From Tachypleus tridentatus (Eukaryota > Arthropoda > Merostomata > Xiphosura > Limulidae): a stretch of DNA of 64,000 nt. Position 1 is the stretch's first letter, and the number at the start of each line of letters is the position of its first letter. Under the pieces are notes generated by a model. The model did no database searches and was not told the DNA's origin. It saw only the letters and a list, made by a program, of their open reading frames with translations. Shown piece after piece: positions 4,866-61,303 of this stretch. The position numbers were made by a program, and so were the translations under genes. Where the stretch lies: positions 47,402,035 to 47,466,034 of the forward strand of contig NC_134831.1 of assembly GCF_004210375.1 (NCBI RefSeq), in the 5' to 3' direction.

Positions 4866-7575
4866 CTGACTGTTTTACACAGTGGTAATAAGTAGAATAA
4901 AAGGTCGTCTTTAACATGGTATCTGTTACTTCTCCAGAATAGCAACAGTTTTAACAGTTAGCGGTTAAACTGCTTAGTTAGTTTATACGGAGTTAATCAA
5001 AAGAATAAACGACTTTCTTGAATCCACTATCTGTTACAATTTCCTAAATTATTAAAATTTTAGCAAACAGAATTTAAATTTCTTTACTAGCTTACACGGA
5101 AATAATTAATCGAATAAATGGCCATATTGAGCACAGTACTTTTATTTCCTGGAGTAAAACAGTGTTAAAGGCCAGCGGATAAAGTACTTAACTGCTTTAC
5201 AGCTTTCTTGATTACGGTATCTTTCTTTCCATAGTAATAACATAATAGTTTACCCCCAAAGTAATTATTCGAATAAACGGTCGTCTTCAATACAGTATCT
5301 TTACTTTTATATAGTAACAACAGTTCTAGCAACCAGTGATTAAACTACTTCACTTGGTTACATAGTGGTAATTAGTGGAATAAACGGCCGTTTTGTGAAC
5401 GGTATATCTCACTTTTTCAGAGTGCCTAACGTTTTAACAGCTAGTAGTTAAACTGCTTAACTAGTTTATTTATAAATAATTAGTATAATAAACGACAGTC
5501 TTAAGCACAGTGTACTCTCTAGTTGTCTAAAGTATTAACGGTTTTAATGGCTGGAGATTAAGCTGCTTTAGTAACATACTCGGAAGTAATTGGTACAATA
5601 AACAGCAATCTTAAGAACAGTAACTTTCACTTTTCCAGAGCAACAACAGTTCTAAATAGCAATGAATATTCTACTTAAATAGTTTACACAGTAGAAGTTA
5701 CTGGCGTAAATGACCCCCATATCTTTTACCAAGTAACTACAATTTTAATGGTCAGTGGAAAGATTAATTGACATGGAGGTAATTAGTCGAATATGTATCT
5801 TTTGAGCTCCACATTTTTCATGTACTGTGTAACAACAGTGCTAACAATGGAATGTCGAAGAAATACTAGATGGCTTGTAGGATAAGTGGCCGCCTAAGGA
5901 AGAGTATTTTTCTTCTCTAGAGCAAACACAGTTCTAAGAAAGTGTGTCTCTGTTTTCTTATAGCAAAGCCACATCGGGCTATTTGCTGAGTTCACCGAGA
6001 GGAAACGAGCCGCTAAAAATGACTGGTTAGTTCTCTTGACTAATTTGCATGGAAGTAGTTCGTAGAATATATGGTCGTTTTGCACATAGTATATTTTACT
6101 TCTCCAGAGTAAAAACTGTTCTAATAGTCCATGGATAATATACGTGACTTGGTGGTACGGACATAATTCGTTGAATAAATAGCCGTCTTTAGCACAGTAT
6201 CTTACTGCTCCAAAGTATTAACAGCTCTAACAGGCAGTGGTTAATCTGTTTGACTAGTTTGCTGAAGGGTAACATAAGCATCTATCTCGAGCAGAGTAAC
6301 AATTATTCTAACAGTCAATTATTAATATTGTTAACTACTTTTGACTGCAGAGGTAATTTGTAGAATAAATTTCTGTCTCAAGCACAGTACCTTACTGCTA
6401 CTCGTAGAGTAGCAACTGGTATAAGAGTCAAAGAGCCAATGGTAAATCTCCTTGTCTTCTTTACATGGAGGTAATCAGTAAAATAAATGGCCCTCTTGAG
6501 TACGGTATCTGTTACTTCTACAAAGTAACAATAGTTCTAACAGACAAAGGTTAAAGTATTTGGCTAGTTTACATGGAGATAATTAGTTAAATAAATGGCC
6601 CTCTTGAGTACGGTATCTGTTACTTCTACAAAGTAACAATAGTTCTAACAGACAAAGGTTAGAGTATTTGGCCAGTTTACATGGAGATAATTAGTTAAAT
6701 AAATGGCCCTCTTGAGTACGGTATCTGTTACTTCTACAAAGTAACAATAGTTCTAACAGACAAAGGTTAGAGTATTTGGCTAGTTTACATGGAGATAATT
6801 AGTTAAATAAATGGCCGTCTTTAGCATACTATCATACTTCTTCATTATAACAACGGTTCTATCAGATAGGGATTAAACTGACTGACTACACGGAGATAAT
6901 TAGTTAAATATCCACCTTTAGCACAATATGCTACTTTTCCAGAGAAAAAACAGTTTTAACGGCCAATGGTTAAACTGTTTTTCTAGTTTACACATGGGTA
7001 ATTATACTTAGGCATATTATCTTACTTCTTCAAACTAAGAAAAGTTTTATTAGCCAGTAGCTAAACTACTTTTGTAGTTTAAACAAGGCTACTGAGTAGA
7101 ATAAACGTCCTTCTTGAGCACAGTATCTTACTTCTCCAGAGTAACAAGAGTTTTAGAGTGCTTGAATAGTTTACAAGGAGGTAATTTGTAGAACCAATGG
7201 ACGTCACGGGCAGAATACTTTACTTCTGTACAGTAAGAACAGTTTTACCAACCAGTGAATAAACCACTTTATTTCATTACAAGGAGACAATTATCTGAAT
7301 AAAAGGCAGTCTGGAGCACGGTATCTTACTTTTCTGCAGTAACGACAATTCTAACAATCAGTTCACAGGCCGCTCGTCTACTTTAGACATACATAAGTAG
7401 CAGAATAATTGGCCGTCTTGAGCATAGAAGTAAATAAATTGGGTAGCCTAACCATTTTACAATCAATGGATAAACTGGACCAACTTGGGAAGCGGTAATT
7501 AGTTGAATAAATTGCTTAAAATTGTTTTAAACGCAGTATCTAACTTCTTGAAAATGAACAGTTTTAGTTGCGATC
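4866..7575. repeat. degenerate 108-bp tandem repeat array
   Basis: About 24 diverged units fill 2.7 kb. The recurring landmarks are 'gtttacatggaggtaatta', 'gaataaatggccgtctt', 'gcacagtatcttacttct', 'agagtaacaacagttctaac' and 'ggttaaactgcttgactag'. Three units at 6481-6804 are almost identical with an exact 108-bp step (starts 6481, 6589, 6697, then 6805), while the outer units are heavily mutated and vary in length. One tRNA-like repeat fragment interrupts it near 5944. This pattern is that of an old satellite or minisatellite with a recently homogenised core. Confidence 0.85.
5944..6012 (-). repeat. tRNA-like repeat fragment (family B) inside the tandem array
   Basis: The block 'tatagcaaagccacatcggg' followed by 'gctgagttcaccgagaggaa' matches the 3' part of family B in reverse. 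The tRNA arm is decayed. Confidence 0.55.
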
Positions 7576-9823: not shown

Positions 9824-10800
9824 TTAGACTCTTTGTTGAGTGGATTGTGATTCTTGAAATATGTTGTATGGTGATATGTATTTTGTTGGTGCACTTGATA
9901 ATTTGTGTAGTGATGCCGTTAGTTTGTTTCTGTTTTCTGCTTTTCGATAATATTTCATAGAAAGTTCTGTTATTCTATCTCTTATAGTTGGTAAATTACT
10001 AATTTGGTGTAGATAATTTGTTGGTGTAAAAGATGGTAAACTGAATGCGGATTTTAATATTTTGTTTTGTTGCACTTGGATTTTTTGGAGTGTGTTGTTT
10101 GACATGTTGTATGTTACTTGACATCCGTACTCTATTAGTGGACGGATGTAAGCCTTGTATATTTGTATAATGGTGTTCGGTGCGCATTTCGATTGTTTAC
10201 CGGTTATAGTCTTCAGATATGAAATCCTTTTCTTATTGATGAGTGTATATTGTTTATGTGTTTTTCCATGTTAGTTTTGTGTCGAAAGTGACGCCAAGGA
10301 ATGTGATGTTTTTGCTCATGTTAATGGTTGTGTTTCCAAGTGATAGTTTTATTTTTTCTAGATTTTTTCTTTGCTTCTTTAGTTTTCTATAGAAGGTGAT
10401 TGCTTGTGTTTTTGTCGGATTTAACACGACCCTCCACTTGTTGCTCCATGTTGAGACGTTGTTTAGTGATTCTTGTACGCGAGACATGGCCATTACTGGG
10501 TTTCTGGAGGTGCTCCAGATTGCGATGTCATCTGCGTATTGTGAATTGTGTGTGTATGTTAGATTTGGAAAAGGTATGTCACTGACGAAAATTATGTAAA
10601 GAAGTGGAGAGAGGACTGATCCTTGGGGCACTCCTGCCGTTATATTAAATAATTTGGATATGGTTTTATTGACTTTTACTTGTGCTGTTCTATTGGTTAA
10701 AAAATTTGAAATCCATTTGACTATCGTAGGATTTATTTGTAGGTGGTTTAGTTTGTATATGATGGCATTGTGCCAAACGCTGTCGAATGCTTTTTTGACA
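9824..10800 (-). pseudogene. Jockey/CR1-type LINE reverse transcriptase, partial
   Basis: The minus-strand frame 10254-10631 carries PQGSVLSPLLYIIFVSDI followed by QYADDIAIW. These are RT blocks with the catalytic YADD box, then the thumb-region sequence NKWRVVLNPTKTQAITF. The frame 9824-10105 continues with a C-terminal block (LPTIRDRITELSMKYYRKAE) usual after the RT in Jockey-like elements. The two parts lie in different frames, with the join between 10105 and 10254. The sequence upstream of the PQGS block (10632-10800) still reads as RT in another frame. The N-terminal endonuclease is absent. The family is a non-LTR retrotransposon; the clade is uncertain. Confidence 0.8.
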
Positions 10801-13036
10801 TCTAGGAATAATGGATTAACGAGATTCCCACTGTTCCTATCTACTATCTAGCGAAACCACAGCCATGGGAACGGGCTTGGAGAAATCAGGACTAGAAACG
10901 TCTTTTCGTAAGAGTGTTAAGATCTGAATTATGTATTGGTAATGCAATGATTGAAAAAACTGAATACCCATTTGTAGAACATCATATAAAACGATTAATA
11001 AAACTTGCAAATGATTGAAGCACTATTGAAGCAATTAACATGCTTTATCATAGAGACTTTTCAGAAAGCTTAAGCAACCAATTTTCGAATCTGATGGCAA
11101 TTAAACAACAACATTAAAATTGATAAACTAATATTAACAATTAAACTTAATGCTCCTTACAAAGAAGGTTTCACCAGAAGGTAGATTCTAATAAAAAATA
11201 ATAATCAAATAAAATTATGGATTCCAATTAGACACGGTTTTGGAATCTTTAATGCTTTAAGAAAAGATATTTCAGATATTGATGTGAAATTACCTTCAGG
11301 TGAAATAATAGTAATGATATGATTTATACACACACAAACATATGTATAGATATATATAATGAAAATTATAAAGCTACAATAAGTGATATTTCGTTATGGT
11401 TACCACATATTAAACTCTATTCCAACAAGAAATTTGAATATCCTAGTTTCACTTTAAATTCTTAAGCTAGTGTGGAAATCAGTTTTATGGAAATAAAGTT
11501 ATTAAAAGTGATGCTCAGAATGAAGCAAGTGGTAAACATCTCGTAAACACTTAAATTAACGAAGTTAGAAACATTTATGTTGTTTTCCAATTTCAAGATA
11601 AAAAAGTCAAAACGAAACAGCATGATTTTCGATAACATTGTTGCACTAAGAACGTGGGTTAGGATTAATAATAATGAATATCCTACTGTTGAAGATTATG
11701 CTGCTTCATTTGAGGTTGAATAATTAGATTACTATAGATATTACTAAGATATGTTAGCAGCTGGGCTAAATAATATTTATACAGAAACTAGATGTTTATT
11801 AAGCTATACCAGTTACGGAAGAGTGTATCCAATAATTTGTTTTAGTGTTTCGAATCACGTACGTTTCCTATGATATGTGATTAATTTGAAGATTAAGTTC
11901 TTCCGGCAACTCAGACAAGCGCCAGCAAAACGGTATTGGTTTTATTTCTTATTAGTTCAGAAGGAATGAAGAATGTTTATAATAAAATTTCGAAACTCTG
12001 GAAACATTTTACTGATAACAAAGAAGTTATTTATTTCCATATGGTAATCTATATGAAAAGGTATATCACAACCATATAAAGTCCACCTGAAAACGGTTTT
12101 CAGTCAAATGATGATGATGATTATGATGTTGATGATAAACAATTAAAAAACTTTAAATACACAACTGGTAATAATTATGCTGCTAATTTATCGCTATTGC
12201 TTAGAAAAACAAACAAAATCGATGATAAATATTTAAATAATATTTTAATAGAAATAAAGATGGCTTATACGTACTGAAAGTATTGCTATCAATTAATGTT
12301 AATTTTGATGCTGCTAATATGCGTTTTAAGAATATTTCGAAGCCAAAAGAAAATTTTGATCCGGTTAATAAAAATGTGTGTGTGAAAAAACAATTAATCA
12401 ATTCGAATATTTTAATACAATATTAGAAACTAATATAAATAAGAAATAAAATCAAAAGATTCAATGAATAATATTAATGCTTTTAATACAGAAACTGTGA
12501 GTAAATTACAATATTTGGAAAATAATTCATTAATATTGACTAAAGTTATATACTTGTTGTAAACGAAAATACCATAGAAAAGTTAATAGAATTAATACGA
12601 GAAACTACTGAAGTAAAAAAATTATGGAGATAAAACATTAGAATCTAACACAAGTGAATTGAAAAGTTACATAAATGAAGTCGAAAAAGTTTATAAATAT
12701 TCGTGCAATATTTGGAAATAACTCATTAATAGAGAGCAGTGCGAAAAATAACAAAATTATAAATGCTGAGGATCCTTTTGCAGAAAACGATACTGTATCT
12801 AAGTTATTTAAGGCATTCATCATTTTTTTATGAAACTAGTGTCTAGTGTTATTTACGTATTATTAACAGATTTGAATCTGTTTAAGTATGATATTGGAGG
12901 AAAACGTTCATATAGAATTAGAAATAAATATAATATGAAGTTAGTTTTATCACAAATAAATTTTAATGAAAGAAACTATAATTTCGGAACACTAGCAACC
13001 ACGTTAAAAACTGATTATATATTGGATCATACGTAA

Positions 13037-15382: not shown

Positions 15383-15589
15383 TTATAATACAGGGGTTCC
15401 CAACCGGTGGGTCGCGAAGCCTTGGCAGAGGGGTCGCAAAGCCTTGGCAGGGGAGTCGCGAAGCCTTGTTAGAAGTAGCTTGGGATAACATTAATTTTAT
15501 TTCATCAATTACATTTTCATGCCTTTACATTTTTTTTTTTTTTCGGTGCAAAGCAAAACGTGTGCTACGTTAGTTCAATGTCATTAGGT

Positions 15590-15760
15590 GATATTATGTA
15601 TGTATGTATGTATGCGTGCCTGTGAGTGAATGTGTATGTGTCTGCAACTGTATGTATGTGTGTACTAGTGAGTAGCGAGTATGTGAGTGCACGCGTATGT
15701 ACGTATGCTTGTGTGTCTGTTTAGCTGTGATTAAGTGTGTGTGTGTGTGTGTGTGTGCTC
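15590..15760. repeat. TATG and GT microsatellites in the hAT 5' region
   Basis: Simple repeats of tatg type near 15597-15615 and an uninterrupted (gt) run near 15734-15757. The opposite-strand equivalent is shorter in hAT copy 2. Confidence 0.8.
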
Positions 15761-15981
15761 GCTGTCGACACGTGAGTCACATGTCCGTTGCTGATTGGTG
15801 GATGACGAATCACGCGACTGGCCACGCTCCCTTCCCTCCCAATACTTACCCCATCAGTACTCTACCTGCACCCCCCACAAGTAGTCAGTGTAAGATCTAC
15901 AGTTGCCAAAGCGTTCATTATTCAACATTTTTATTTTATTTTAACAAGGAGATAAGTAAGCAGTAGAGGTGAGTTGTGTCC

Positions 15982-17764
15982 ATGGCTAAACGGCGCAGAT
16001 ACTCAGAATGCTACCTCAACATTGGCTTCACCACTGTGCTCGCCAACGACGACATCGAGAAACCACAGTGTGTTTTGTGCCATGCTGTCCTGAGTGCAGA
16101 GTCAATGAAACCATCAAAACTCAAGCGTCATCTCGAGACGAAACATCCAGAAGACGCAAAGAAGGGTTTGGATTTCTTCAAACGGCATGAACGGTGTCTT
16201 AAAAGCCAAAGAATCGATAGAAGTGGGTCGTTTCAGCAGCAGAGTGCAGCCGTAGTGGAAGCTTCATATGAGATTGCATTCGAAATTGCTAAACAAAAAA
16301 AGCCTCACACGATTGGAGAAACACTTCTTAAACCCTGCATGATGAAAGCAGTAAATCTTATTCTTGGAGAAGCCAGTGCAAAGAAGATGCAGCATGTATC
16401 CCTGTCAAATAATACTATACAGAGGCGCATTTCTAAAATGTCTATGGATGTGAAGGAACAGGTTTTGACTGAAATCAAGGGTTCCCCTTTGTTCTCCTTT
16501 CAGCTCGACGAGTCAACAGATGTAAGTTCATGTTCTCAGTTGCTTGTCTTCGTGAGATACATTAATTAAGGTGACATCAAAGACGAATTCTTATTCTGCA
16601 GTGCACTTGAAACCACAACAAAAGCTGATGATGTCATGGAAAAAGTTTCAACTTTTTTTCAAGACGAAGATCTTCAATGGGAAAACGTGAGTGGGGTTTG
16701 TACGGATGGGGCACCGGCTATGCTGGGATCGAAATCAGGATACCAGTCGAGAGTGAAGAAGCTAGCACCTCAAGCACAGGGCATCCACTGCATGATTCAC
16801 CGATATGCTCTCGCCAGTAAGACTCTCCCTGCCTCTCTGCAGGAAGTGCTTGAATCTGTAATCAAAATTGTAAATTATGTGAAGACTCAAGCACTCAACA
16901 CTCGCCTATTCAAAGAACTATGCAAAGATATGAATGCTGACCACGAAGTCCTTCTCTTCTACACAGCAGTACGTTGGTTGTCGAAAGGAAACGTTATTAA
17001 TCGTGTCTTTGAAATGAAAGATGAAATAAAGCTATTCCTGGAGACTCAAGAAAGGAAAGATCTTGTAGCTCACTTCGAAGATGAAGTATGGAATAAAAGG
17101 GTTGCGTACCTAGCCGACATTTTTTGACCAGCTGAACAAGCTCAATTTGAAGCTTCAAGGATGGGAAACACATGTTCTCCTTTTTCAAGATAGTCTTCGG
17201 GCCTTTGTTTCCAAACTGCAGAACTGGCGTCGGAAAACCAATCTTGGAAACATCGCTATGTTTGAAAAACTTTGTGGAGTGACGGATGAGTCTCATATCC
17301 AACTGGATCAGTTCCTCAAGGATGAGATTACCGAACATCTTCAGTCTCTAGAAAAGGAAGTCGAGCGTTACTTCCCTGAGCTGTCACAGGAACAGGAGGC
17401 CCTGGTAAGGAACCCATTTTGTACTGAACTTGATGTATCCAGCATCCCAGATGATATCCAAGATGAATTTCTGGATCTAAGGAACGACTCTTCAGCTCGT
17501 AATCTCTTCAAGGTGAAATCCGTGACTCAGTTCTGGTGCGCTATGTATCAGTCATACTCCAAAGTCAGCATGATAGCTTTACGTGTCCTTGTTCCATTTG
17601 CTTCTACCTACTTGTGTGAGGCAGGAGTTTCCACTCTTGTCAATATAAAAACAAAGAATAGGAACAGATTGGATGTTGGAGATGACATGAGACTGGCTCT
17701 AACAAACGCTCGGCCATGAATTTCAAAGCTTGCTGCTGAAATGCAAAATCAGGCATCTCACTAG
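15982..17764 (+). pseudogene. hAT transposase (ZBED5/Charlie-like), three lesions
   Basis: The first ATG is at 15982 and the original stop at 17762. In order, the product has a BED-type zinc finger (CVLC ... HLETKH), a helical linker, and the RNase H-like core with FQLDESTDVS and GVCTDGAPAMLGSKSG acidic motifs. It then has the AVRWLSKGNV box and a C-terminal dimerisation region (FASTYLCEAGVSTLVNIKTK). Comparison with copy 2 shows where it broke: TCA to TAA at 16567-16569, a one-base gain in the T run at 17119-17127, and CGA to TGA at 17717-17719. Host proteins of the ZBED5 group descend from such transposases, but this copy sits inside intact transposon ends and is a plain dead transposase. 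Confidence 0.92.
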
Positions 17765-18108
17765 CTGGGTTGGATAGCTGTTCAAACCTATGTTAATATT
17801 ATTTTAAGAAATATATGTTCTTTTTGTGAATTCAGGTTGGACCAATGTGATTTAATTTGCTAATAAATAATTACAAAATTTTTAAATATTTTTAGATGTT
17901 TCTTTCCCTCTCCTTCACAGAAAATAAAAGAAAAATTAAGCTGCTGATAGTAAGCTCTAAATAAGGGGTCATATGGGTTTCAAACTTTTAGGTAAGGGGT
18001 CGCGAGTGCCAAAAGGTTGGGAACCCCTGTTATAATAGTTATCTCACTCACTTGTGAAAGTGAAACAAAAGGTTTCCTATAGAACATGTTTTAATTCTTA
18101 AACGTGTA

Positions 18109-19418: not shown

Positions 19419-20159
19419 AAAGTATATTACTATATAGTAAATAAAGATTGACTGCCTCATTTAATATAAAAATATTTCAGCAGTGCAATACAAATGCTAT
19501 CCAGCTCTAAAAAATTATGCATGTTAAATGTAGAATAAAAATTAATAACATAATGAAGGGTTTTATACATAAAATAACTGTATTACTTTTAAATCAAAAT
19601 TAAATCTAGCCATTGATTACATGTTGAAACATCTATGAATACATCAAGATGCTTGTATTTCTACTTCTTGGAACTACGAAATCACCATCTCTGACATTCT
19701 GTTGTCATGTCTTCTTTCATGGTGGCTTAACAATGCACTCTCTTGTGACACTTTGTGAAACTTATGAATGAAGAAATATAAATAACTTGCAAGTTAACTT
19801 CTTATGTTCTAGATGGTAAAGAAATATAAGCAATAAATTACATAACTGGTTTCTCTCTAGCTTATTTGTTGATGAAGAAACTTCACTATATCCCAACTAA
19901 ACTGTTTTTGTCCCTACATTACCAATGAATAAAAACGTTGATATCTCATAACTGAAACAATTTTGTTGCAGATGATAAAAATGTTAGTAATGTATAATAT
20001 TATTCACTTTATTTCAGATGATAAAGAAACTTTGCTACATCAGAGTATAACTGGTTTTCATTCATATTATCTATGATGAAGAAATGTTACTTTCTCACAA
20101 ATAACCGGGTCTTTCCCAGGTTAACCCTTTATAAAGAAACGTAAATAGCTTATAGCCAA

Positions 20160-20715
20160 GGCACAAAACTGAGGTCTATACTATGTAAAAACTACACTGA
20201 CAAACACCACACCAACATTATTTATAAAATACAATGTGATAACTGCCACGACTTCTATATTGGAGAAACAAGTAGAAAAATGGAAACCAGATTCAAAGAA
20301 CATAAAAAGTCACCTTCACACGTTTTCGAACACTGCAAGTCAAATAAGCACAACATAACCATAGAAAACACTCAAATACTAAATAAAGAAACAATCATAA
20401 ACAAACGCAAAATTAAAGAAGCCTTACTTATGCAACAACTTAAACCCAAAATAAACCAATTTAAAGGAATGCCTTTACACCTATATTAATATAATAAAAT
20501 AAATAAAATTTATATTCAAACATCTAATACCGCCCTCTACATTCCGACACTCATTTACACAACCCCTTCCAAACATGTGGTCAGCTTCCGGTCTGTTACC
20601 TCTTTCTTTGTGAACCTGACGATGACGAAGAAGAACGAAACGTTGTTCGCTCTTCTATGTAAAATATTTTCTCAACCCAAACGAGCCGTTTTTGCACATA
20701 TATTTACAAGGGAGA
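20160..20715 (+). mobile_element. Penelope-like retroelement, 3' part
   Basis: It consists of the C-terminal GIY-YIG coding region followed by about 225 bp of 3' sequence. No reverse transcriptase precedes it, so the insertion is strongly 5'-truncated. It lies inside the tandem array. Confidence 0.7.
20163..20489 (+). CDS. Penelope-like GIY-YIG endonuclease domain, partial
   Basis: The frame is open from about 20160 without an ATG until 20280, so it is the C-terminal end of a longer protein. It contains IIYKIQCDNCHDFYIGETSR: the 'Y' and 'YIGET' pair of the GIY-YIG nuclease core preceded by the CxxC pair seen in Penelope-like endonucleases. ETRFKEHKK follows, with the conserved Arg and His. 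A basic helical tail ends in PKINQFKGMPLHLY. In this family the domain nicks target DNA for retrotransposition. The reverse transcriptase half is missing, so the copy cannot be autonomous. Confidence 0.8.
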   Translation, partial: TKLRSILCKNYTDKHHTNIIYKIQCDNCHDFYIGETSRKMETRFKEHKKSPSHVFEHCKSNKHNITIENTQILNKETIINKRKIKEALLMQQLKPKINQFKGMPLHLY

Positions 20716-26741: not shown

Positions 26742-27332
26742 TCATACACTTGTTTCCCTGAATCCTTCTAAGCGCACAGTGGCGGAACTTGGTTTCTGTC
26801 CAAATTGAATATCATCTACAGCCTTCAACAGTTCTTTAAATAAAAACATTACGTGCCAGTTATACCGTGCTGAACATTCAATGTAACCACATTTCCAATG
26901 TTTCTTAACTAGACTGGCAATTTCTCTTCGGTCACGTGATGCACTGAGGTCGTGCTTGTTGCCAACTACAAAGACAGGCACATTCTGCATGTTACGAGTT
27001 TCAAAGATCTGATCACGAAGATGTTTCACGTACTGGAAAGTCTCCGGTGAGGTAAGGTCAAATACAAGGACGTAGGCATGGGCGCTTCGCAAGCCATGAT
27101 ACTGAAATTCTCTCCACTCATATAAGGAATTTGCGGGAAAGTTTGTGATCATGGGCATATCTGAAATCCTCAACTCATACAAGTGATCGTTAATGAAAAC
27201 AGAAGGAAAGAAAGTTTGCTTGACCTTTGTCGTGTGATATTCATCTGTAAATTCGTTCCACACAAATTGGCGTATGATAGATGTCTTCCCCACAGCAGGT
27301 GCACCGAGCACCACAAGCTTCACCAAATTCAT
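26742..27332 (-). CDS. RASL10B: Ras-like small GTPase, RASL10 family
   Basis: The product is a 196-residue GTP-binding protein in one uninterrupted exon. Motifs in order are G1 GAPAVGKT (10-17), the atypical G3 DMP (58-60, in place of the Ras DxxG), G4 NKHD (125-128) and G5 ECSA (152-155). RASL10-type context includes GLRSAHAYVLVFDL and KCGYIECSARYNWH. The ATG at 27332 is the first after an in-frame stop at 27378-27380, so the start is secure. A polypyrimidine tract and AG near 27444 suggest a 5'-UTR intron ends about 110 bases upstream. RASL10 proteins are membrane-associated Ras relatives ending in a CaaX box. Here the frame ends in RETSV, but one base out of frame the sequence reads GNKCMIL then stop (26734-26736), an obvious CaaX. 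A single-base loss in the CCC run at 26756-26758, real or a sequence error, explains this. Confidence 0.88.
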   Translation of the reverse strand: MNLVKLVVLGAPAVGKTSIIRQFVWNEFTDEYHTTKVKQTFFPSVFINDHLYELRISDMPMITNFPANSLYEWREFQYHGLRSAHAYVLVFDLTSPETFQYVKHLRDQIFETRNMQNVPVFVVGNKHDLSASRDRREIASLVKKHWKCGYIECSARYNWHVMFLFKELLKAVDDIQFGQKPSSATVRLEGFRETSV

Positions 27333-27442
27333 GACGTCATTCCGATCGTTTGCTGGACGACGATACCTAGTGTTACATTACTGTTATCTTGTAGAAGACT
27401 GGCAAGCAAAATGTGTCACTATCATTTTTCATGCTGCAATCA

Positions 27443-30152: not shown

Positions 30153-30160
30153 CATTACAA

Positions 30161-32758
30161 CAGGGATTCCCAACCTTTTGGGACTCGCGACCCCTTACCT
30201 AAAAGTTTGAAACCCATGTGACCCCGTACTTAGAACTTACTATCAGCAGCTTAATTTTTCTTTTATTTTCTGTGAAGGAGAAGGAAAGAAACATCTAAAA
30301 CAAATATTTAAAAATTCTGTAATTATTTATTAGCAAATTAAATCACATTGGTCCAACCTGAATTCACAAAAAAGAACATATATTTCTTAAAATAATATTA
30401 ACATAGGTTTGAACAGCTATCCAACCCAGCTAGTGAGATGCCTGATGTTGCATTTCAGCAGCAAGCTTTGAAATTCGTGGCCGAGCGTTTGTTAGAGCTA
30501 GTCTCATGTCATCTCCAACATCCAATCTGTTCCTATTCTTTGTTTTTATATTGACAAGAGTGGAAACTCCTGCCTCACACAAGTAGGTAGAAGCAAATGG
30601 AACAAGGACACGTAAAGCTATCATGCTGACTTTGGAGTATGACTGATACATAGCGCACCAGAACTGAGTCACGGATTTCACCTTGAAGAGATTACGAGCT
30701 GAAGAGTCGTTCCTTAGATCCAGAAATTCATCTTGGATATCATCTGGGATGCTGGATACATCAAGTTCAGTACAAAATGGGTTCCTTACCAGGGCCTCCT
30801 GTTCCCGTGATAGCTCAGGGAAGTAACGCTCGACTTCCTTTTTCTAGAGACTGAAGATGTTCGGTAATCTCATCCTTGAGGAACTGATCCAGTTGGATCT
30901 GAGACTCATCCGTCACTCCACAAAGTTTTTCAAACATAGCGATGTTTCCAAGATTGGTTTTCCGACGCCAGTTCTGCAGTTTGGAAACAAAGGCCCGAAG
31001 ACTATCTTGAAAAAGGAGAACATGTGTTTCCCTTCCTTGAAGCTTCAAATTGAGCTTGTTCAGCTGGTCAGAATTGTCGGCTAGGTACGCAACCCTTTTA
31101 TTCCATACTTCATCTTCGAAGTGAGCTACAAGATCTTTCCTTTCTTGAGTCTCCAGGAATAGCTTTATTTCATCTTTCATTTCAAAGATACAATTAATAA
31201 CGTTTCCTTTCGACAACCAACGTACTGCTGTGTAGAAGAGAAGGACTTCGTGGTCAGCATTCATGTCTTTGCATAGTTCTTTGAATAGGCGAGTGTTTAG
31301 TGCTTGAGTCTTCACATAATTTACAATTTTGATTACAGATTCAAGCACTTCCTGCAGAGAGGCAGGGAGAGTCTTACTGGCGAGAGCATATCGGTGAATC
31401 ATGCAGTGGATGCCCTTTGCTTGAGGTGCTAGCTTCTTCACTCTCGACTGGAATCCTGATTTCGATCCCAGCATAGCCGGTGCCCCATCCGTACAAACCC
31501 CACTAACGTTTTTCCATTGAAGATCTTCGTCTTGAAAAAAAGTTGAAACTTTTTCCATGACATCATCAGCTTTTGTTGTGGTTTCAAATGCACTGCAAAA
31601 TAAGAATTCGTCTTTGATGTCACCTGAATTAATGTATCTCACGAAGACAAGCAACTGAAAACATGTACTTACATCTGTTGACTCGTCGAGCTGAAAGGAC
31701 AACAAAGGGGAACCCTTGATTTCAGTCAAAACCTGTTCCTTCACATCCATAGACATTTTAGAAATGCGCCTCTGTATAGTATTATTTGACAGGGATACTT
31801 GCTGCATCTTCTTTGCACTGGCTTCTCCAAGAATAAGATTTACTGCTTTCATCATGCAGGGTTTAAGAAGTGTTTCTCCAATCGTGTGAGGCTTTTTTTT
31901 GTTTAGCAATTTCGAATGCAATCTCATATGAAGCTTCCACTACGGCTGCACTCTGCTGCTGAAACGACCCACTTCTATCGATTCTTTGGCTTTTAAGACA
32001 CCGTTCATGCCGTTTGAAGAAATCCAAACCATTCTTTGCGTGTTCTGGATGTTTCAAAACACACTGTGGTTTCTCGATGCCGTCTTTGGCGAGCACAGTG
32101 GTGAAGCCAATGTTGAGGTTGCATTCTGAGTATTTGCGCCGTTTAGCCATGGACACAACTCACCTCTACTGCTTACTTATCTCCTTGTTAAAATAAAATA
32201 AAAATGTTGAATAATGAACGCTTTGGCAACTGTAGATCTTACACTGACTACTTGTGGGGGGTGCAGGTAGAGTACTGATGGGGTAAGTATTGGGAGGGAA
32301 GGGAGCGTGGCCAGTCGCGCGATTCGTCATCCACCAATCAGCAACGGACATGTGACTCACGTGTCGACAGCGAGCACACACACACACACACTTAATCACA
32401 GCTAAACAGACACACAAGCATACGTACATGCGCGTGCACTCACATACTCGCTACTCACTAGTACACACATACATACAGTTGCAGACACATACACATTCAC
32501 ACAGGCACATTCACACAGGCACGCATACATACACCCATAATATCACCTAATGACATTGAACTAACGTAGCACACGTTTTGCTTTGCACCGAAACAAAAAA
32601 ATGTAAGAGCATGAAAATGTAATTGATGAAAGAAAATTAATATTATCCCAAGCTACTTCTAACAAGGCTTCGCGACTCCCCTGCCAAGGCTTTGCGACCC
32701 CCTTGCCAAGGCTTCGCGACCCCACAGGGGGTCGCGACCCACCGGTTGGGAACCCCTG
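30161..32758 (-). mobile_element. hAT transposon, copy 2 (inverted relative to copy 1, inactive)
   Basis: The element is 2598 bp with ends cagggattcccaacc and ggttgggaacccctg. The 8-bp flanks cattacaa (30153-30160) and cataagaa (32759-32766) match at six positions and are probably a worn target duplication. It carries the same single gene as copy 1 in opposite orientation and is nearly identical along its length. Its subterminal 22-bp repeats lie at the right end (32660-32735). Confidence 0.93.
30430..32150 (-). pseudogene. hAT transposase copy 2, BED finger deleted
   Basis: The ATG lies at 32150 and the stop at 30430-30432. Compared with copy 1, a 63-bp in-frame deletion (junction near 32054) removes 21 residues. 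These include the second Cys and the first His of the BED zinc finger, so DNA binding is lost. One-base gains occur in the T run at 31893-31900 and in the T run at 30839-30843 (plus-strand view). The catalytic core (FQLDESTDVS, GVCTDGAPAMLGSKSG) and the C-terminal dimerisation region are otherwise open. None of the copy 1 lesions is shared, so the two copies decayed independently. Confidence 0.92.
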
Positions 32759-51424: not shown

Positions 51425-52057
51425 TATGTAAAAATATTAATTTATCCTATTTGTATTTTCGAGTTTTATTTGAAAAAAACTGTCGTTGTGTTTTAAATTA
51501 CTTTCTTAAGAACTTGGAAGTGTTATATTCTCCGTTTAATTTTACACACATACATAGGAATGTAACATAACTTGTGTACGGTATTGTAAAATCACTAACA
51601 ACTTCAGTTAGAACATCGACTGAAATACCATATTAAGTGTGTTAAGATTATTGGAGTGATCTTTTAAAGAAATCTCAGATGGGATGAACAAATTTTAATG
51701 ATTTCAAATAAACTTACAAAAGGTATTTATATTTTGAAAAGGTGTAAGAAAATTTTATTTGTATGGATGAGTTATCAGATTTATTATTCCATCTTTATAG
51801 TCAAATGACTTTTGTTTAAGTGTCTGAGATCTAAATATCGGTGCTTGAACACTTCTATTTACACCACCACAATATATTTTACTGTCCAAGAAGAGCATTA
51901 GCTCCAAGTCCAAGGTGCTTTTACTTCTCTCTTTTTATTTTAAATCAAATTAATTTCAACATTTCGACTACCCCTAATTTCAGATTATTCATACTTTTCT
52001 ATTAATGATTGCATGTAACATTTTATGTGTGTATGTGTGAGGGTATGTTTTTAATTA
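51425..52057. other. non-coding, no gene seen
   Basis: No recognised feature up to the start of the 52-kb element. Confidence 0.4.
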
Positions 52058-52260
52058 CACTATGTAACAAATTTTTACTTTTTCTTGTTCCTGGACAGAA
52101 AGTGTTATTTCCCAATTGCTTATGCCTAAAGTAAACGGAAAAGACCTATTTTTCTCTTCAAACTTTGCTTTTATGACCTGAGTAATGAAATTTTCAAATT
52201 TATCCATTTTCCAGAACATTCCAAGTAGATTCAGTGCTGAGTAGCTGATAGATAATTTTT

Positions 52261-52370
52261 TCGAACTTACAAGAATTTTCAAGAACTTTCTAGAATATTG
52301 TAGAATTTACAAGAATTTTCTATAACTTACGAGAATTTTCAAGAACCTTTTAGAATTTTCTAGAACTTTC
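52261..52370. promoter_or_regulatory. eleven in-phase nnGAAnnTTC decamers (HSE-like array)
   Basis: Read in consecutive tens from 52261, every unit fits nnGAAnnTTC or differs from it by one or two bases; six of the eleven are exact. Units 2 and 3 followed by the next GAA (52273-52295) make a perfect five-box heat-shock element (alternating nGAAn/nTTCn). An earlier HSE-like block, ttccagaacattcc, lies at 52209-52222. Heat-shock factor binds three or more such alternating boxes. The array sits about 110 bases before the decayed reading frame of the element, in promoter position. Confidence 0.7.
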
Positions 52371-52483
52371 CATAGTAATATGTATTCAGAGGCTCACCAC
52401 TCACCACTTCAATTTAGTTCTAGCTTCCCAAGTGAACACATAGACATATTCAAGGAGGATTTACCAAGTTTCTCTGTCATATT

Positions 52484-53130
52484 TGCCTTTGGGATAGTAG
52501 GGGTACTACAGCGCACCACAACAGGAAGCACTGGCTACAACGGACCGATTTCTCTGTGGGGAGGCACAATGTCAAGCGTGAGCCACTAGTGGACCTTCAG
52601 AAGGTGTTGTTCCCACCATTGCACATAAATTTGGTCTTATTTAACAATCTGTCTTGATAAGGAGTCTGCAACCTTCAAGTACCTTCGAGACTTCTTCCCT
52701 AACCTATCTAGGGCAAAGATCAAAGCTGATGTCTTTGTTGGACCACAAATAAAGAAGATCCTCGAGTGCACAGAATTCCCCAAGAAGCTCAGTAGGAAGG
52801 AAAAAAAAGCTTTGGACAGCTTTGTCGCAATGGTTTGGGGCTTCTTGGGCAATCACAAGGAAATTATGTGGAAGTGAGTGAGGCTCTAGTGAAGAACTAC
52901 GGCAAAATGGACTGCAGGATGTCTCTGAAAGTCCATATCCTCGACGCTCATCTTGATAAATTAAAGGAGAACATGGAAGCAAACTTAGAGGAGTAAGGCG
53001 AGCGCTTCCACCGACGTATACTGGACTTTGAATGCCGCTACCAAGAAGCGTATAGCAAAAACATGATGGGAGACTATATTTGGGAGCTGATACATGAAAG
53101 TTATTTATATTACAGTAGTAAATCTTGAAA
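52484..53130 (+). pseudogene. decayed protein gene of the 52-kb TIR element
   Basis: The gene is spread over three frames. At 52484-52636 CLWDSRGTTAHHNRKHW runs on to REPLVDLQKVLFPPLHI. At 52671-52876 TFKYLRDFFPNLSRAKIK runs on to the end near IMWK. At 52871-53130 DCRMSLKVHILDAHLDKL, a TAA at 52994-52996, then GERFHRRILDFECRYQEAYS and MMGDYIWELIHES. I recognise the last blocks as a family that recurs, uncharacterised, in many arthropod genomes; its function is not known to me. The conserved HAHLD/GERFHQD-like spacing suggests a nuclease-type fold, but this is a guess. Confidence 0.6.
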
Positions 53131-53439
53131 ACTACTCACTTCTAAACATTTTTGTATAACTTTGGTGTAAATATATGCAAATCTTGATTCATATGTTGTT
53201 TTATTCAGACCTTATGTAAATGAAAATGTGAAATTTGCCTGTTAATTTCTAATAGGTTAATTTCTAAATTTCATTATCCAGGTCACAAAAGCAAAGTTTG
53301 AAGGTAATAATGGTTATTTTCTGTACTTTTACAACATAAGCAATTACGAAATAACACATACTATCCAGAAACAAAATTTGTGTTACATAGTGTTATTTAT
53401 CTTATCTGTAAATAAATAAAAATAATAAATAGTAATGAG

Positions 53440-59722: not shown

Positions 59723-61303
59723 CACTGCTGGCCAAAATCTTAAGACCAATAAACATAAAAAAAAAATATGCATTTTGCGTTGTTAGACGCAACCACTTAT
59801 TTGAGTATGGCTTAGAAAGATGAAAATAAGAAAAGGGAAAATAAAAACAAAAACCTTTTTAGCATTTAATAGGGAAAATATGAACATTGTGAAATTAGCC
59901 TAAATACTAGCTGGTCAAAAGTTTAAGACCATACCAAAAAGATGTCCTAAACAGGGTAGGAAATGGCCAATAGGAGGTCTCAGTAGTGAGTTGCACGGCC
60001 GTCATTGCGAATAACTTCAAACATTAGCTTTCGCATGATCAATGTAAGCGTTTGCAGAAGTCTGGCTGGAATGTTATTCCAAGTGGTGACGATGGCTTCA
60101 CGAAGATCATGCACTGTTTGGAATTGACGTCCATTTCTATAAACTTCTCTTGCCATCTACCCCGAAACATTTTCAATGGGGTTCTGTTCGGGTGTACACG
60201 CAGGATGGTAAAAAAAAATCGTGTTACTCGCCATGTAAAAGTCCTTTGTACTCCAGGCATTGTGGATTGCAGCATTGTCCTGCTGAAAGATTCAATCATT
60301 TCCATACAAGCGAGGGCCTTCATTCAATAAGGATGCTCTTTCCAACATGCCAATGTAGCCAGCTGCTGTTTGACGCCCCTGTATAACTTGAAGATCCATT
60401 GTTCCATAGAAGGAGAAAGCACTCCAGATCATGATGAAATCTCCGCCACTGTGTCGTGTAGAAAATGTTTCCGGTGGCATATCCTTATCGTGCCAGTAAC
60501 GTTGGAAGCCATCTGGACCATCCAGGTTAAATCTTTTCTCACCAGAGAACGAAACCTTCTTTCACTTTTTTACGTCCTATGTTTGGTGCTTCTCAACAAA
60601 GTTTAACCAAGCTGTTTCGTGGTGTGAAAGGAGGCGTGGCCTTTCAAGAGATTTACAGTTTGTAAAACCTTTCTCTCGTAGATGCTGTCTTATTGTTCTT
60701 GAGCTGCATTCTGCCTCAGTAAGGGCCTTAATCTGGTTCGACGATCGACTAGTGTCTTGCTGGACAACCCGTAAAATTCTCCTGTTCAACGCCGGTGAAA
60801 TTTTTTTGGACCGACCAGTTGAAATTGTCATTCTGTATCTCTCAGGGTCTTTTAAGAAATTTGCAACAGCAGTTTTACTATGCCCAATCTCACCAGCGAT
60901 GGCACGCTGAGAGAGACCTTGCTTTTGCAGCTTGACAATTTTGCCACGTTCAAACTCTGTCAACTTTTAAGCCTTTGCCATGTTTTTACCCAATGTAACA
61001 CAGGAGATGTCAGTGGGAGATGTTGACAACACTAATGGTTGAACACAAATGACTAAATTAAATTATGTGTTTGCCGATTAAAGCTTCGGTTCAATATGGT
61101 CTTAAACTTTTGACCAGCTAGTATTTAGGCTAATTTCATAGTGTTTACATTTTTCCTATTAAATGCTAAAAAAGTTTATTTTTATTTTCCCTTTTCTTAT
61201 TTTCATCTTTCAAAGCTCTACTCAAACAAGTGGCTGAGTTTAACAACACAAAATGCATATTTTTTCATAATGTTCATTGGCCTTAAGATTTTGGCCAGAA
61301 GTG
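59723..61303 (-). mobile_element. Tc1-like transposon, full length, IR/DR ends, inactive
   Basis: The element is 1581 bp flanked by TA (59721-59722 and 61304-61305). The ends are about 210-bp inverted repeats (59723-59933 and 61095-61303). Each carries an outer motif 'tggccaaaatcttaagacca' and an inner motif 'ggtcaaaagtttaagaccat' in direct orientation. That is the IR/DR arrangement of Sleeping Beauty-type elements, in which transposase binds both motifs. Between them is one transposase gene on the minus strand. Confidence 0.93.
59980..60981 (-). pseudogene. Tc1-like DD34E transposase, five stops, no frameshift
   Basis: A single frame of 334 codons runs from ATG 60981 to TGA 59980-59982, the usual length for Tc1 transposases. 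It has the paired-like DNA-binding domain (GKIVKLQKQGLSQRAIAGEI ... GRSKKISPALNRRILRVVQQ) and [14 protein letters not shown], where Gly (60541-60543) replaces the first catalytic Asp. QQDNAAIH has the second Asp, and the Glu of TPEQNPIENV follows with exactly 34 residues between. The C-terminus is intact. Stops: TAA at codon 5 (60967-60969); TAG at 60577-60579, TGA near 60562, TGA at 60292-60294 and TAG near 60160, the last four where Trp is expected. Confidence 0.92.

Follow-up and report, generated by a model that had tools for sequence, protein, structure and literature searches.

Does a run of heat-shock-like motifs inside a mobile element mark a heat-driven promoter, or a short tandem repeat whose likeness to one is incidental? 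The question is raised by eleven decamers of the form nnGAAnnTTC at positions 52261-52370 (plus strand) of a 64,000-nucleotide stretch of Tachypleus tridentatus DNA, which was analysed as a whole and is hereafter called the window. A sequence-only reading had described these decamers as having at most two changes each and no slip of phase, and counts of changes together with Tandem Repeats Finder confirm it. Read in tens from 52261, the units depart from nnGAAnnTTC by 1, 0, 0, 1, 1, 0, 2, 0, 1, 0 and 0 changes, or 6 mismatches at the 66 GAA/TTC positions; Tandem Repeats Finder, which detected the array independently, scored periods of 10, 20 and 30 at 94, 125 and 121. A degenerate decamer with two changes (52251-52260, plus strand) stands in phase with the array. 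The 110 bp from 52261 to 52370 are the best stretch of that length for nnGAAnnTTC in the whole window, whereas in 20 windows simulated with a first-order Markov model the best stretches had 29-34 mismatches. A GC content of only 29-41% in 2-kb steps would favour a chance origin in AT-rich DNA, but the distance between 6 mismatches and 29-34, along with the independent detection of the repeat, rules this out, and we give it virtually no credence.

Three alternating boxes are enough for binding by heat-shock factor (HSF). Sixteen of the 22 boxes of the array are perfect (10 of 11 GAA and 6 of 11 TTC), falling in runs of 1, 5, 1, 2, 3 and 4, so that the 22 boxes of the sequence-only reading can be counted if changes are allowed and shrink to 16 under a strict definition. 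Because so many boxes are perfect, and because at least three alternating nGAAn/nTTCn boxes occur in perfect runs of five, four and three, the array formally contains strong heat shock elements (HSEs). The whole window holds four strict three-box sites of the form GAAnnTTCnnGAA and three of the form TTCnnGAAnnTTC, where 50 simulations averaged 0.5 and 0.44, respectively. Six of these seven sites lie inside the array; the seventh is TTCcaGAAcaTTC at 52209-52221 (plus strand), 39 bp upstream of the array and one base off its phase, and it is the upstream HSE-like block already noted there. A hairpin formed by the palindromic units was considered and rejected, since 91 of 100 shuffles folded at least as well as the single-stranded DNA of 52140-52500. 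No known structured RNA was found in the whole window by Rfam at gathering score.

Comparable arrays were found in other DNA. Runs of at least five consecutive perfect GAAnnTTC units were found in one viral contig (L001) and in seven prokaryote genome stretches (L002-L008, assigned by record titles). L001 looks like a bacterial virus, its sequence being rich in GC and densely open. With two changes per unit allowed, the eight arrays measure 5-10 units. Some of the bacterial and archaeal arrays are nearly uniform, and L004 and L005 have 10 units each. Arrays of the control palindromes AAGnnCTT and AGAnnTCT turned up in 3 and 5 viral contigs against 1 for GAAnnTTC, all small raw counts; among the viral control arrays (L009-L016), L012 comes from a 408-kb contig. 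Bacteria and archaea are not known to have HSF, and since arrays occur in them and other palindromes are no rarer, period-ten palindromic arrays arise without HSF. Such arrays are, on these small counts, not special to GAA/TTC.

The array in the window lies inside a terminal-inverted-repeat element of 1,335 bp (52058-53392). The left inverted repeat (52058-52208, plus strand) starts CACTATGTAACA and the right one (53251-53392, minus strand) ends CATAGTG; they are about 140-150 bp long and match at 77% over an ungapped 124 bp and at 74% across 158 columns. TTA stands on both sides (52055-52057 and 53393-53395), a possible 3-bp target-site duplication that could match by chance. The array begins 52 bp inward of the left inverted repeat. 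No decamer array adjoins the right one, and outside the array the element's best four-unit stretch mismatches at 8 of 24 positions. A blastn search of the window found no second copy of the element, the hits being the element itself, its arms and shifted matches of the array; the remaining matches are 14-57 bp long, with E values of at least 0.07. Together with the gene remnant described below, the inverted repeats and the TTA flanks bear out the earlier view that the array sits in a decayed mobile element.

Several other features were recorded in the window. One element is present in two copies of opposite orientation (15409-18036 and 30154-32722) that are 97.8% identical across one stretch of 1,903 bp and 94.4% across another of 679 bp; in each copy one end carries a 22-bp tandem repeat, and the element contains one open frame with a borderline BED zinc finger. 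It is probably a young hAT-like transposon. A reverse transcriptase fragment (RVT_1, E value of 1.4e-28) lies at 10254-10844 (minus strand), a Tc3-type transposase fragment (6.5e-10) at 60577-60963 (minus strand), and a weak GIY-YIG match (20.6 bits, the curated cut-off being 22.6), which we take to be possibly part of a Penelope-like element, at 20145-20486. A 210-residue open frame at 26742-27374 (minus strand) matches the Ras family (2.9e-26) and is likely to be a normal gene, or an exon, of the host. A 108-bp tandem repeat is found at 6460-6821, with 3.4 copies at 97% and more diverged copies across about 4874-7343. Interspersed repeat motifs known from horseshoe crab genomes are present as well.

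The gene of the array-bearing element is represented by a decayed remnant at 52448-53131 (plus strand), interrupted by a stop and by two or more frame changes. Aligned to the 562-residue protein P0130 it covers residues 327-558, with 121 of 236 aligned positions identical; the start codon and the first 326 residues are missing from this copy. The array is therefore the promoter of no complete gene here, and the promoter position once ascribed to it does not hold; internal deletion would have brought it close to the rear of the coding sequence. The remnant has 294 related proteins at E values of 0.001 or less among 343 candidates, and P0051, a longer family member, has 2,164 among 3,479. The sources among the best 120 of the 294 include sturgeons, lamprey, piranha, frog, a tunicate, Rhagoletis flies and a moth, with T. 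tridentatus itself contributing six of the 120 entries. Judged by these matches, the predicted protein is a member of a large, multi-copy animal family. A comparison of 61 members with Pfam (E values of 0.01 or less) gave weak zf-AD matches in nine and GRAS, BIR and DUF3198 in one member each, and no match to a known transposase model; six family proteins gave weak Pfam matches, the best with an E value of 0.0087. Three matches to PDB sequences (E values of about 0.5) were taken as chance. Residues D263, D317 and E515 (P0130 numbering) are invariant in the 61 aligned members and would fit a DDE transposase; D263 and D317 fall within the residues lost from the remnant in the window.

The ends of the element recall more than one class of transposon. 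En/Spm (CACTA) elements have CACTR ends and a 3-bp target-site duplication; here CACTATG is found at both ends and TTA at both flanks, a 3-bp match being weak alone. The element is not filed as CACTA because Pfam shows no transposase family, of En/Spm type or any other, in the 61 members. Transib and ProtoRAG elements have a 5-bp target-site duplication, whereas the flanks here read AATTA and TTATT; any likeness to ProtoRAG elements or V(D)J signals would lie in the CACTATG end alone. Helitrons are without terminal inverted repeats, unlike this element. We judge it likely, in one assessment with the reading of the array set out below, that this is an animal DNA transposon with terminal inverted repeats, non-autonomous and internally deleted.

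The fate of the array in other copies was followed through predicted proteins. An open frame running through the left inverted repeat and over the array's edge has five related proteins among six candidates, of which P0226 is the only one to read on into the place of the array. Residues 1-55 of P0226 contain no array-compatible peptide: the best 20-residue window has 14 mismatches at 36 positions, against a mean of 13.6 and a minimum of 10 in shuffles of the same residues and 2 of 36 in the window's own array. Over the whole length of the five relatives, the best 20-residue windows have 11-15 mismatches at 36 positions. None of the 225 family proteins passes a test for ten-residue periodicity, and a set of 14 four- or five-letter peptide words of the decamer array yielded one word each in P0043 and P0225 among these proteins. 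The single informative relative, P0226, shows no array. A 25-base pattern of the inverted repeat gave no stretch among viral contigs; the family protein alignment gave 42 peptide-pattern stretches there and six in prokaryote genome contigs, none of which was confirmed by tblastn.

Whether the GAA/TTC positions have been kept while the spacers varied was asked column by column. Spacer columns 2 and 7 deviate at 3 of 22 positions against 6 of 66 in the core (Fisher p=0.69), and columns 1 and 6 at 5 of 11 in each; because of the latter two, the four spacer columns together exceed the core (13 of 44 against 6 of 66, p=0.009), although 12 of the 210 possible choices of four columns reach 13 deviations. 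This excess favours an HSE reading. Spacer variation beyond that of the boxes is thus found in columns 1 and 6 and absent from columns 2 and 7, which are as constant as the core. Because HSF boxes prefer an A in front of GAA, a constant column 2 is not purely evidence against HSF. In columns 1 and 6 nearly every unit has one of two bases (T6/A4/G1 and T6/C5), and the pattern of these columns returns six units further on (8 of 10, p=0.009; p=0.019 for any lag from one to seven); over all ten columns this lag gives a weaker signal, 41 of 50 (p=0.029; any lag, p=0.096). A 55-bp block at 52254-52308 shares 46 of 55 bases with a second copy 60 bp downstream at 52314-52368 (both plus strand). The six-unit recurrence and the repeated block are as the duplication of a mixed block would leave, and the spacer excess, which comes from a comparison of boxes and spacers within one copy, is confounded by it. 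Tandem expansion, which the sequence-only reading had named as an alternative, is favoured by this recurrence, by the 55-bp block and by the constancy of columns 2 and 7.

The inverted repeats provide a yardstick of drift. Their arms differ at 26 of 139 positions, or about 9.4% per arm, and the core of the array deviates by 9.1% (binomial p=1.0); the yardstick is a rough one, deviation from the array's own majority being different in kind from a difference between arms. By this measure the core is not visibly held back. Between one gap event (MAFFT, inside the arms) and four separate the two arms, which leads to an expectation of 0.4-1.6 indels per 110 bp and a probability of about 0.67 to 0.21 of finding none. 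The absence of any indel from the array is accordingly unremarkable, and so is its retention of phase, which had been called striking.

We therefore regard the array as probably a minisatellite in a dead, internally deleted, non-autonomous transposon, with an HSE content that is real but incidental. What is directly seen is the array, the pair of inverted repeats with their matching TTA flanks, and the remnant of the gene, which lacks its front. The decamer would first have multiplied through slippage or unequal exchange, some six units would then have been duplicated together, and the array would since have decayed by point mutation about as fast as the remainder of the dead element. As its best runs fit the HSF consensus, HSF could probably bind them; this potential follows from the sequence of the unit, and selection for it is unsupported here. 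A different account makes the array a heat-shock enhancer, now or formerly in intact copies, where HSF trimers would bind several of the runs and raise transcription of the transposon gene under stress. It draws on the perfect boxes and their runs, on the additional site at 52209-52221 and on the four-column spacer excess, and Caenorhabditis Helitrons (PMC6927752) offer it a good precedent, ONSEN (PMC8376061) a further one. However, no gene start lies downstream in this copy, the core drifts as the inverted repeats do, the excess spacer variation is confined to two columns that recur in blocks, and P0226 reads past the place of the array without showing it, which as one predicted protein is weak evidence. 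We consider such an enhancer unlikely, and the suggestion that the element is or was switched on by heat is not upheld.

The decamers might also be subterminal binding sites of the element's own transposase, in a CACTA-like arrangement. Subterminal repeats bound by transposon proteins are found in En/Spm-type elements, and the placement of the array just inside one inverted repeat, with CACTATG ends and TTA flanks, would suit this role; but the array is present at one end and absent from the right end, the protein family matches no known transposase model and P0226 seems to be without the array, which together make the idea improbable. Improbable, too, is the broader proposal that a family of inverted-repeat transposons, common across animals and with a protein that Pfam leaves unnamed, uses tandem HSE arrays as its own stress promoter, its non-autonomous copies having scattered HSF sites in chelicerates. 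If it were true, family-wide HSE arrays would form a non-Helitron parallel to the Caenorhabditis case, and a conserved HSE block here would mean that another transposon group, unrelated to the first, carries heat-inducible sites through an animal genome. The minisatellite, as it stands, is a decamer repeat able to mimic a strong HSE cluster, and its lesson is that runs of this kind should be called regulatory only after their spacer columns, possible block duplication and a neutral yardstick have been examined.

A literature search found no publication uniting heat shock elements, transposable elements and nGAAn tandem repeats, and the known systems each share part of what is seen here. Caenorhabditis Helitrons likewise carry tandem, overlapping HSE-like sites in a DNA transposon, with more than 100 HSEs reported in some copies; their arrays are bound by HSF-1 and their heat response was measured, whereas the array here is known from sequence alone and lies in an inverted-repeat element, and among the genomes tested, HSE enrichment in Helitrons was reported for Caenorhabditis alone (PMC6927752). 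ONSEN of Arabidopsis has the very role that had been proposed for the present element, being a mobile element activated by heat through its HSEs, but it is an LTR retrotransposon with the HSEs in its LTR, and its activation by HSFA2 has been demonstrated (PMC8376061). Human satellite III is, like the array, a tandem repeat of short units with putative HSEs; it is a large pericentric satellite transcribed through HSF1 in stressed cells and stands outside this kind of transposon (PMC9032817). Tandem repeats within transposons are well documented (PMC9659126, PMC6947457), with examples in ENSAT1 of Atenspm, (GTCY)n of a lepidopteran MITE-like element and miDNA4 of a Xenopus MITE (PMC9659126). Their units and element families differ from those described here, and HSE likeness goes unmentioned in the sections of that source consulted, but like the array in T. 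tridentatus they are tandem repeats in the end or 5' region of transposons that are mostly non-autonomous (PMC9659126).
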